Part shown: positions 1-3,132 of the stretch, piece by piece
Position numbering within the stretch: the stretch's first letter is position 1
Layout: every line of letters begins with the position of its first letter
NCBI GenBank assembly: GCA_008638415.1
Contig: VWVT01000021.1
Span: 38,213-102,212 of the forward strand
Direction of reading: 5' to 3'
From: Nocardiopsis sinuspersici
Lineage (GTDB): Bacteria; Actinomycetota; Actinomycetes; Streptosporangiales; Streptosporangiaceae
Length of the DNA stretch: 64,000 nt
Notes under the pieces: generated by a model
What the model saw: the letters and a program-made list of their open reading frames with translations, nothing else
What the model was told of the DNA's origin: nothing
The model's database searches: none
Program-made: the position numbers and the translations under genes

Positions 1-1484
1 TCGCGGACGGCGTTGATCTGCTCGGGCGTGATGAGGTCGGTCGGGCCGGTCGCCAGTGTCACCGAGTAATGGGTGGTGTTGCCGCCCGGTTGCGCGGCCT
101 GGGTCTTGTACAGCCCCCGACCTTCCATGACATATCCATGCGCGCAGGACATGAACGAGTTGCCGGTGAAATACACCGTGCCTTCGCGCCTGGCCAGCCA
201 GGTGTTGTTCGGTGTGCGCACACACCAGACCCGCCCTTCGTGGGGCTCGCGCAGGATGGTGAACTTCGCCTTCCTGGTTGCCGCGGCCTTGGGCGCGACG
301 TGGGTCTTACGGCGCAGTTCGACCTTCCACATGGGATACGGCGTCGAGGAGGTGGGCGGTCGGCGCCGTAGGGAGGTCGAGTATCCGGCGAGAGTCGCAG
401 CGAACTGGAACGCCTCGGCGGCGGCGCGGCTCTTCTGGCTGAGTGCCTGGGCGTTGTTCGTGCGGTTGCCGTGACCGTCTCCCAGTAGTGACGCCTCGAT
501 GAACAGGGAGAGTTGCTCCGCGGTCAACGATCGCAAGAACGCATGGGTGGGAATCCGTCCAGGGGCGTGTTCGATCAGAACACGGCCAGCGTCGGAGGAC
601 AGATGAAACTCGGCCAGGCTGCGGTTGCGGGCCTCGCGCCATCGCGGGATGCCGTCGGTGTTCGCACTTCTCCGGGGGAACCGTTCGCAGGGTGGTCCGA
701 AGGCGCCGTGCAGCGCGTTTCGAATCCTGGCCACACGGTCGGGATTCCTCGTCTCCGACTGATAGATGGCCACGCTGGTACCGGCCTTACGGCTTTTACC
801 CTGGAGTTTGATGTGCCCCTCAGTCCAGAACCAGGCCACCAGTTCCACGAGTGCGTTGGACCACTTGGGTTCGGTGGGCAGGTGAGCGCAGGGAGCCGAC
901 AAGGGAATTCGATCCCAGTAGCCAAGCGTGTCCGTGGTCGCCCACACCCGCTCATGTCCTTTGACACTGCGTGCCGTGCGGCCGGTTCGGGCCCATGTCC
1001 CGTCCTCGTTTTTTCGCCTTTCGGTTCCCGTGCGCCTGTAGTAGCGCTCTACGGGCCAGCGGTGGCCCGGGGTGGTCAGCGACGAGTGTTCGCGTCCCTC
1101 CATCCGCACCAGCTCCCGAGGCATGGCGGGAAAGACGTAGACGTGCTGGAGGGGCTGCCACTCCGACATCCCTGTCTCGTGGTTGAGGGTGAGAACGATG
1201 TCACCGGGGGAGATTTGGTCGAACGTCCGCCAACCGTCCTCGGTGAGGATCTCGGTTGCTTCGTCCACGCAGTATCCGATGCATGTCCATCCACGGGAGG
1301 GGCCCATGTGGAACGCGCGGGTGTTGCGCCAGTAGGTGAGGCAGGCCGAGTGGCTCTTCCCGGCGAGCCCCTGGTCACTGCCGTCGTAGTGGATGACCAG
1401 TCCTGACCTGGGGTCGGCGTAGGAAGCCTGGCACACGGGCCATCCGAGTTCGGACCGGGACACGTACTTGCTCGGTCGAGGCAT
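1..1484 (-). CDS. PGRP-type N-acetylmuramoyl-L-alanine amidase interrupted by an intein (3' end off window)
   Basis: I translated this minus-strand frame from the ATG at 1484-1482; an in-frame stop lies five codons upstream (1497-1499), and the frame stays open to the window edge. Residues 1-71 and the last 52 residues read as one peptidoglycan-recognition/amidase domain split by an insertion. The N-part has VIHYDGS (His32, likely first zinc ligand), KSHSAC and GWTCIGY. The C-part resumes with SFMSCAHGYVMEGRG and GGNTTHYSV. Rejoined, the junction reads IGYSFMSC, which matches the usual PGRP core (IGYsFlV...EGRG). The family cleaves the MurNAc-L-alanine bond of peptidoglycan; endolysin, autolysin or secreted lysin roles are all possible. 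No signal peptide is visible. The remaining zinc ligand and any cell-wall domain would lie beyond base 1. The intein must be removed for the fold to form. Confidence 0.85.
   Translation of the reverse strand, partial: MPRPSKYVSRSELGWPVCQASYADPRSGLVIHYDGSDQGLAGKSHSACLTYWRNTRAFHMGPSRGWTCIGYCVDEATEILTEDGWRTFDQISPGDIVLTLNHETGMSEWQPLQHVYVFPAMPRELVRMEGREHSSLTTPGHRWPVERYYRRTGTERRKNEDGTWARTGRTARSVKGHERVWATTDTLGYWDRIPLSAPCAHLPTEPKWSNALVELVAWFWTEGHIKLQGKSRKAGTSVAIYQSETRNPDRVARIRNALHGAFGPPCERFPRRSANTDGIPRWREARNRSLAEFHLSSDAGRVLIEHAPGRIPTHAFLRSLTAEQLSLFIEASLLGDGHGNRTNNAQALSQKSRAAAEAFQFAATLAGYSTSLRRRPPTSSTPYPMWKVELRRKTHVAPKAAATRKAKFTILREPHEGRVWCVRTPNNTWLARREGTVYFTGNSFMSCAHGYVMEGRGLYKTQAAQPGGNTTHYSVTLATGPTDLITPEQINAVR
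159..1271 (-). other. Intein (371 aa) with LAGLIDADG-type homing endonuclease
   Basis: The in-frame insertion begins at Cys1 (CVDEATEILTEDGWRTFDQI) and ends ...VYFTGN before Ser+1. Block A is at 1-13. Block B contains TPGH (Thr67, His70) followed by Trp72. Two endonuclease-like motifs follow: VAWFWTEGHIK (acidic Glu151) and EASLLGDGHG (Asp265). Block F is VWCVRTPNNTWLARR with Cys350, and block G is FTGN with terminal Asn371. The penultimate residue is Gly370 instead of the usual His, a known variant. Length and block order are typical of a full-size intein with endonuclease. Insertion is at a conserved core position of the host domain, as expected for inteins. GC over 1201-1260 is 37/60, visibly lower than in the genes that follow, which is consistent with transfer. 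Confidence 0.88.
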
Positions 1485-1638
1485 GAATCCATTGTGTCAA
1501 GGAAGCACTCCGCAGAGTGGCGAATCAATACTATTCGGTGGAAATTCCTTGCCCTGGTCCCCATGGTGTGGCGAATTCACCCTGCCCGGCTCCGACTGCG
1601 GCACGATGGGGGCCGATCCACCTCCGGGAGGTAAACCG

Positions 1639-3132
1639 GTGCTCTCCGCACACACCGTCAGCGTCGTCCGCGAAGCCGAGTCCGCGCTCATGGCGCGCGT
1701 CCCCGACGGAACCCTCATGCGCAGGGCCGCGACCGGGCTCGCCGCGGAGTGCGCCCGGCTCCTGCCCCGTGTGTACGGCGCGCGGGTCGTCCTCCTGGTC
1801 GGCGGCGGCGACAACGGCGGCGACGCCCTGTACGCGGGTGCGAACCTCGCCGCACGGGGAGCCTCCGTACACGCCCTGCTCGCGGGAAGGGGCCTCCACC
1901 AGGACGGCGCCATCGCCCTGCGTGCGGCGGGCGGCCGGACCCGGTGGTTCACCGACGCGATGGCCGACGAGACCGACCTGTTCGACGCCGACCTCATCGT
2001 CGACGGACTCCTCGGTATCGGCGGGCGCGGGGGGCTGCGCGAGCCGCACGCCACCCTGGCCCTGCTCGCCGCGAACGCACCCGCTCCCGTGGTCGCGGTC
2101 GACCTGCCCAGCGGGGTGGACGCCGACACCGGCGAGGTCTCCGGACACGCCGTCCGCGCCGACGTCACCGTCACCTTCGGCACCCACAAGCCGGGCCTGT
2201 TCGTCGACCCGGGAGCCGACCGCGCGGGCCGGATCCACCTCGTGGACATCGGGCTGGCCCCCGAGCTGCCCGGGCCCGCCCTGGTCCGTCCACAGCCTGT
2301 GGACATCGCCTCGCTCCTGCCGGTCCACGGCGCCGAGACCGACAAGTACCGCCGGGGTGTGCTCGAGATCCGCGCGGGCTCCGACCGGTACCGGGGCGCC
2401 GCCGTCCTGTGCGTCGGGGGAGCGCTGCGCACCGGGGTCGGGATGGTCCGCTACGGGGGCGGACTGCGCGTCGTCGACCAGGTGCTCTCCCAGTGGCCGG
2501 AGACCGTCGCCAGACTCCTCGACCCGCAGAGCAGCACCGACCTGTCACCCGGTCGGGCCTCCGCCGTCGTCATCGGCTCCGGACGCGGTACGCACCCGGC
2601 CAACTCCGACGAGCTCTACTCGGTCCTGGAGAGCGACCTGCCGGTACTCGTCGACGCCGACGGGCTCACCCTGCTCACGGGGGACGGGGGCGCCGCGCTG
2701 GCCGAACTGCTCTGCGAGCGGACGGCGCACACGCTGCTGACCCCGCACGCCGGGGAACTGGCCCGGTTGATGGAGGCCGACCGGGGCGACGTGGAGGCGC
2801 GCCGCCTGGAGCACGCGGCCCGTGCCCGCGACCGCTTCGGGTGCACGGTCCTGCTCAAGGGGTCGACCACGGTGATCGCGCACCCGGGCGCGCCCGTGGT
2901 GGTCAACCCGACGGGTACGCCGCTGCTGGCCACGGCCGGGACCGGTGACGTGCTGTCGGGGGCGGTCGGCGCGTTCCTGGCCTCCGGGCTGCCCGCTCGT
3001 GAGGCCGCGATGTGCGGCGCCTACGTACACGGACGCGCCGCCACGCTCGCCCGGGGCGGCGCGCCGATCAGCGCGTCCGACCTGTTGGACGCGCTGCCCC
3101 TCGCGATCCAGGAGGCCCACCGGGCCGTCTGA
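1639..3132 (+). CDS. nnr: Bifunctional NAD(P)HX epimerase / ADP-dependent NAD(P)HX dehydratase
   Basis: Repairs hydrated nicotinamide cofactors: the N-domain epimerises R/S-NAD(P)HX and the C-domain dehydrates S-NAD(P)HX using ADP. The 497-residue product has the usual two-domain length. The YjeF_N motif GGGDNGGDALYAGANL starts near residue 55. The carbohydrate-kinase-like C-domain carries DADGLTLLT, LLTPHAGELARL and, near 423-440, NPTGTPLLATAGTGDVLSG, the ribokinase-type anion-hole region. I chose the GTG at 1639 because GGGAGGT lies seven bases upstream; an upstream in-frame ATG at 1606 lacks such a site. The gene faces the amidase gene divergently and converges on the PIN toxin gene 14 bases downstream. 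Soluble and cytoplasmic. Confidence 0.93.
   Translation: MLSAHTVSVVREAESALMARVPDGTLMRRAATGLAAECARLLPRVYGARVVLLVGGGDNGGDALYAGANLAARGASVHALLAGRGLHQDGAIALRAAGGRTRWFTDAMADETDLFDADLIVDGLLGIGGRGGLREPHATLALLAANAPAPVVAVDLPSGVDADTGEVSGHAVRADVTVTFGTHKPGLFVDPGADRAGRIHLVDIGLAPELPGPALVRPQPVDIASLLPVHGAETDKYRRGVLEIRAGSDRYRGAAVLCVGGALRTGVGMVRYGGGLRVVDQVLSQWPETVARLLDPQSSTDLSPGRASAVVIGSGRGTHPANSDELYSVLESDLPVLVDADGLTLLTGDGGAALAELLCERTAHTLLTPHAGELARLMEADRGDVEARRLEHAARARDRFGCTVLLKGSTTVIAHPGAPVVVNPTGTPLLATAGTGDVLSGAVGAFLASGLPAREAAMCGAYVHGRAATLARGGAPISASDLLDALPLAIQEAHRAV

Follow-up and report, generated by a model that had tools for sequence, protein, structure and literature searches.

Inteins are known mostly from nucleic-acid enzymes. 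In the literature on inteins together with endolysins, amidases and Nocardiopsis, as far as our partial coverage of it extends, we found no report that places an intein within a lysin or an amidase, and PMC3314691 gives 0 of 224 mycobacteriophage endolysins with an intein. Class 3 inteins are defined by the absence of a nucleophile at position 1 (PMC5050341, PMC7891396, PMC5222942) and are marked by a Trp-Cys-Thr triplet at B:12, F:4 and G:5 (PMC5050341, PMC3196547, PMC5222942); in Msm DnaB-1 the Trp lies two residues after the His, and Cys118 lies 21 residues ahead of the last Asn, Asn139 (PMC5222942). On the side of the host protein, the zinc site of T7 lysozyme consists of His17, Tyr46, His122 and Cys130, and exchange of the Tyr for Phe in the endolysin studied in the same paper left about 10% of its activity (PMC4573324).

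The window analysed here is a stretch of 64,000 nucleotides from Nocardiopsis sinuspersici, the contig of which extends beyond the window (in G000). At its left end lies an amidase gene with an insert that, with good confidence, we take for a cis-splicing Cys1 intein with a two-motif LAGLIDADG domain, residing in a chromosomal lysin-like PGRP amidase and persisting there as a mobile element. Such a host protein is unusual, as an earlier note on this DNA had suggested. Close relatives among these soil actinobacteria have the gene in an intein-free form, so that the insert resembles a genetic parasite in an uncommon host more than an established on-off switch. Coordinates are given in Table 1, with block numbering as in PMC5222942 and PMC3196547; the GHRD and CPG ligand motifs and the PG_binding_1 region of the precursor are located beyond the window. 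To what the earlier note described, the analysis adds the strand and truncation of the gene, its place in the chromosome and not in a prophage, the triplet resembling that of class 3, the apparent decay of the endonuclease in most relatives and the free-standing derivatives.

Table 1 Features of the amidase locus in the window
Feature	Position	Strand	Remarks
Amidase precursor, residues 1-494 of 647	3..1484	-	Single open frame; gene runs on beyond the left edge of the window
N-extein, residues 1-71	1272..1484	-	Expected zinc ligand His32 at 1389-1391; -1 residue Tyr71 at 1272-1274
Intein, residues 72-442 (371 aa), Cys1 to Asn371	159..1271	-	
Block B, intein 60-75	1047..1094	-	TxxH with Thr67 and His70, then Trp72 (B:12)
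LAGLIDADG-like motif 1, intein 139-154	810..857	-	Acid Glu151 at 819-821
LAGLIDADG-like motif 2, intein 254-268	468..512	-	Acid Asp265 at 477-479
Blocks F and G, intein 346-371	159..236	-	Cys350 (F:4, 222-224), Thr369 (G:5), Gly370, Asn371 (159-161)
C-extein start, residues 443-494	3..158	-	+1 residue Ser443
nnr (YjeF_N and Carb_kinase), divergent neighbour	1579..3132	+	Marker of the syntenic locus; match start C20:39791; domains assigned via orthologue

To compare the junction among relatives, 80 loci were parsed from the stronger amidase matches and two further searches (weaker amidase matches were left out); 45 of them carry an intein and 35 lack one. Removal of nine duplicates (five with an intein, four empty) yielded 40 intein-bearing and 31 empty loci, 71 altogether, with three odd ones retained: L093 (frameshift, part of the N-extein out of frame), L046 (shortened) and L043 (Asn at +1). 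The insertion bond is identical in all 40 inteins, being preceded by Tyr in 40/40 and followed by Ser in 35/40 or Thr in 5/40, and the 31 empty loci read cleanly through it, with Ser after the bond in 30 and Asn in L043. Residues C1, T67, H70, W72, C350, T369, G370 and N371 are conserved in 40/40 amidase inteins; the block B His, the terminal Asn and a +1 Cys, Ser or Thr are thus present in every one. The insert is a real intein and its boundaries at Tyr71 and Ser443 are exact, as the earlier note had read them together with blocks A, B, F and G and two LAGLIDADG-like motifs, both acids of which (Glu151 and Asp265) are present in the window intein. The expected domain matches were obtained in part: Pfam scores for Hint and LAGLIDADG stayed under the cut-off, whereas fold comparison identified a HINT fold (matching the inteins TliVMA, PI-SceI and PI-PfuI) and a two-motif LAGLIDADG fold (matching I-DmoI, PI-SceI, PI-PfuI and TliVMA). 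Sequence searches of the intein against the PDB, by single sequence or profile, gave nothing significant (best profile match 6riz, E 1.1).

It might be argued that the insert no longer splices, which would leave either a pseudogene or an intein confined to cleavage. The spliced product is a sequence prediction, one relative (L093) has an upstream frameshift, and free-standing derivatives that are dead for splicing exist. Nevertheless, given that the splicing residues and the +1 Ser or Thr are kept in 40/40 and that the extein substitution ratio is at most 0.33 in all 16 pairs (hand-chosen and overlapping), we judge this explanation to be highly improbable.

Domain matches identify the N-extein and C-extein together as an N-acetylmuramoyl-L-alanine amidase that carries a PG_binding_1 region in its C-terminal part. 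With the whole precursor as query, Amidase_2 (PF01510) reaches 26.1 bits, its cut-off being 26. The PG_binding_1 score is below its own cut-off in the full precursor and above it in the C-part alone, and residues 416-494 match the endolysin family phrog_1493 of PHROGs (E 4.3e-18). A profile of seven intein-free homologues, used in place of the joined N- and C-extein sequence, matches animal PGRPs (4zxm, E 8.5e-18) as well as T7 lysozyme (1lba, E 3e-6). The predicted amidase model was poor (pLDDT 49.7) and was left out of the fold searches. In a profile of empty loci the -1 Tyr aligns to residue 47 of the T7 lysozyme reading frame, which would correspond to Tyr46 once the start Met is dropped. 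Motifs for all four zinc-site residues (His, Tyr, His, Cys) are found in 39/40 intein loci and 30/31 empty loci, the exceptions being L093 (upstream frameshift) and L046 (shortened sequence). In L093, from genome G008, the N-part of the amidase is split over two frames (matches 1-56 and 51-218), which reflects either a frameshift or an assembly error. Among phage enzymes, the amidase of Thermobifida phage P1312 is 60.7% identical to that of the empty sister locus L081, and the bond is uninterrupted in the 40 listed of 43 phage records matching the L081 protein, whereas it is interrupted in the window amidase. A Cys at position -4 of the N-extein (Cys68, about 1281-1283, in CIGY/C) occurs among the 71 loci only in the window and in L081; it is a possible redox partner of Cys1.

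The amidase sits at a chromosomal site that can be followed through the genus. The nnr gene was found in 40/40 genomes and, judged by coordinates, the amidase adjoins it in 27 of these, 20 with an intein and seven empty. The nearest relative of the window, L081 (exteins 87% identical), is empty at this site, with flanking genes that are 76-97% identical. At another site, next to genes of the cobalamin type, both states occur as well (L066 and L071 with an intein, L115 and L119 without). Clusters of head or tail genes, named by PHROGs in a profile scan covering part of the neighbours, lie within six called ORFs of 10/31 empty loci against 0/40 intein loci; given this and the adjoining nnr gene, a prophage lysin was rejected for the window. 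Directly before the amidase start, positions 1485-1560 of the window are strongly conserved, with an exact ACAATGG in 22 of the 26 loci listed, occupied and empty alike. A scan for sigma-70 promoters and terminators upstream of the amidase gave no match; possibly the conserved DNA is the promoter of a leaderless gene.

According to the favoured reading, that of a splicing mobile element, the insertion lies directly after the catalytic-site Tyr (the presumed equivalent of Tyr46 in T7 lysozyme) of the chromosomal lysin-like amidase. The whole precursor would be translated, after which the intein would excise itself and ligate Ser443 onto Tyr71; the predicted amidase that results has 276 residues. 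Before splicing, His32 and Tyr71 would be parted by the insert from the other two residues of the zinc site, and consequently the unspliced precursor should be inactive. A lysin that depends on splicing in this way would offer a simple lysis read-out of the reaction.

The same separation of zinc-site residues can be taken to favour the proposal of the earlier note that splicing acts as a post-translational switch, the intein being kept since conditional splicing would hold a cytoplasmic cell-wall-cutting enzyme inactive until it is needed. Its retention beside nnr in 20/27 genomes, and in many lineages that have lost both acids of the endonuclease (20/40), points the same way, and conditional splicing is known from other inteins (PMC5790916, PMC6195587). 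However, 7/27 genomes do without the intein at the same site, including the nearest relative of the window, and retention of inteins with a dead endonuclease is also expected simply from the rarity of exact removal. Neither a trigger nor a regulatory partner was found, and the intein is spread in the manner of a mobile element; positive evidence did not emerge. The idea is possible but unsupported, and we consider it very unlikely.

The splicing chemistry is less clear-cut. The class 1 signature (Cys, Ser or Thr at position 1 together with a block B TxxH) is present as C1, T67 and H70 in 40/40 amidase inteins; the class 3 triplet (Trp at B:12, Cys at F:4, Thr at G:5) is likewise complete in 40/40, and in 22/22 inteins of a separate alignment (11 from amidases, 11 from phage or viral-contig proteins), where C1, H70, W72, C350, T369, G370 and N371 are invariant. 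Because class 3 inteins by definition have no nucleophile at position 1, and Cys1 is present in 40/40, the window intein would, as judged from its residues, formally be assigned to class 1, albeit one that has a triplet of the class 3 kind. Alternatively, Cys350 in block F might start splicing instead of, or besides, Cys1. This class 3 or two-way chemistry would agree with the triplet and with its spacing (as in Msm DnaB-1, the Trp stands at His +2 and the Cys 21 residues ahead of the terminal Asn), with the +1 Ser or Thr usual for class 3 (PMC5222942), and with the finding that a class 3 intein is the best short-intein match in fold comparison. The invariant Cys1 argues against it, as do Thr67 in block B, a class 1 pattern (PMC6195587), and the occurrence of an F:4 Cys in class 1 inteins too (PMC3196547). 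On balance we regard it as rather unlikely, though of some weight. A further variant combines this chemistry with control: both Cys1 and Cys350 would be able to start splicing, oxidation would pair the active-site cysteines and stall it, and the amidase would be released only in a given cell state, the clade then being a natural class 1/class 3 intermediate. That a cell-wall lysin should have such a safety catch, gated by redox state, seems to us a long shot.

Comparison with described inteins gives the same mixed picture. Class 3 inteins (MP-Be DnaB, Msm DnaB-1, AceL NrdHF) share with the window intein the triplet, the +1 Ser or Thr and the splicing fold, but differ from it in the invariant Cys1 and the block B Thr found here. 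VMA-type class 1 inteins with a LAGLIDADG endonuclease (TliVMA, PI-SceI) reside in another host protein and are 15% identical to the window intein, which has Gly instead of His at the penultimate position and Cys instead of Asp at F:4. Full-length homologues, 34-40% identical, are found in actinophages (Gordonia phages Hail2Pitt and GordDuk1, Mycobacterium phage Pinkcreek gp135, GX15bay; portal, TerL and others). These share Cys1, His70, Trp72, Cys350, Thr369, Gly370 and Asn371 with the window intein, although their hosts are annotated as portal, TerL or hypothetical proteins whereas the window intein occupies a cell-wall amidase. A clade that combines Cys1 with the complete triplet offers a means of testing how class 3 inteins, whose origin is disputed, arose.

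Across the 40 amidase inteins both endonuclease acids are present in 10, one in 10 and neither in 20. In 14 of the 16 pairs mentioned above, substitution ratios show the middle of the intein, which takes no part in splicing, to be looser than the extein; it is also looser than the splicing parts in 14 of the 16. These patterns suggest that the endonuclease has decayed in most relatives, while the splicing parts would be kept because the amidase is kept. Now and then the endonuclease may carry the intein between divergent amidase genes; after transfer the intein would be inherited with its host gene and the endonuclease would decay.

The distribution over the trees is consistent with such a course. 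To account for which loci have the intein, 17 changes are required on the extein tree, at least nine of them forced by well-supported branches (with the bootstrap unsettled, and gain not separable from loss). Inteins from G017, G003 and G024 cluster with the one in the window (support 100/99). Between the window and the Nonomuraea locus L041 the exteins are 35% and the inteins 63% identical, the reverse of what is seen among near relatives, and the intein is more alike than the extein in 254/780 pairs. In closely related pairs synonymous divergence is similar for intein and extein, which indicates mostly vertical descent and leaves present-day mobility uncertain. We read the pattern as that of a mobile element, with probably rare jumps followed by joint descent with the host gene.

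Profile scans, in which five or six candidates were scored per genome, matched the intein in 17/394 genomes of the class, 17/17 of them in the family of the window and in amidases, and in 68/341 genomes of the family (15/68 genera). The exteins of the 68 family matches are amidases in 66 cases, another protein in one (G561) and absent in one free-standing ORF (G755). In G498, a Streptomyces-side genome, the intein likewise lies in an amidase. Overall, we are dealing with an intein specialised on a cell-wall amidase in the cellular genomes of one actinobacterial family, and with a natural experiment in which active-looking, decayed and absent forms occur at one chromosomal site among sister species. 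The experiment extends to free-standing derivatives with lost splicing residues and retained endonuclease acids. In Streptomyces tateyamensis (L043:9827-11158) a free-standing ORF with 43% identity to the window intein no longer has the Cys at position 1, the block F Cys or the last Asn, but has kept both acids; the stop codon of this ORF shares bases with a TTG, a possible start codon for a PGRP amidase without an intein. In the ORF of G755 (L180:1444-2697), 62% identical to the window intein and without extein, position 1 is Ser, the last Asn is replaced by Ala, and both acids remain (motif read by eye); that genome gave no amidase match. Judging from these two sequences, both look like inteins turned into plain endonuclease genes. 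The non-amidase host of G561 (L190) carries an intein of the same clade; this counts against the favoured reading, as do the weak Pfam scores and the similar synonymous divergence in near pairs. Finally, G014 (L068/L090) and G006 (L070/L088) each have two intein-bearing amidases at different sites, in which one intein measures 371 aa and the other 268 or 280 aa.
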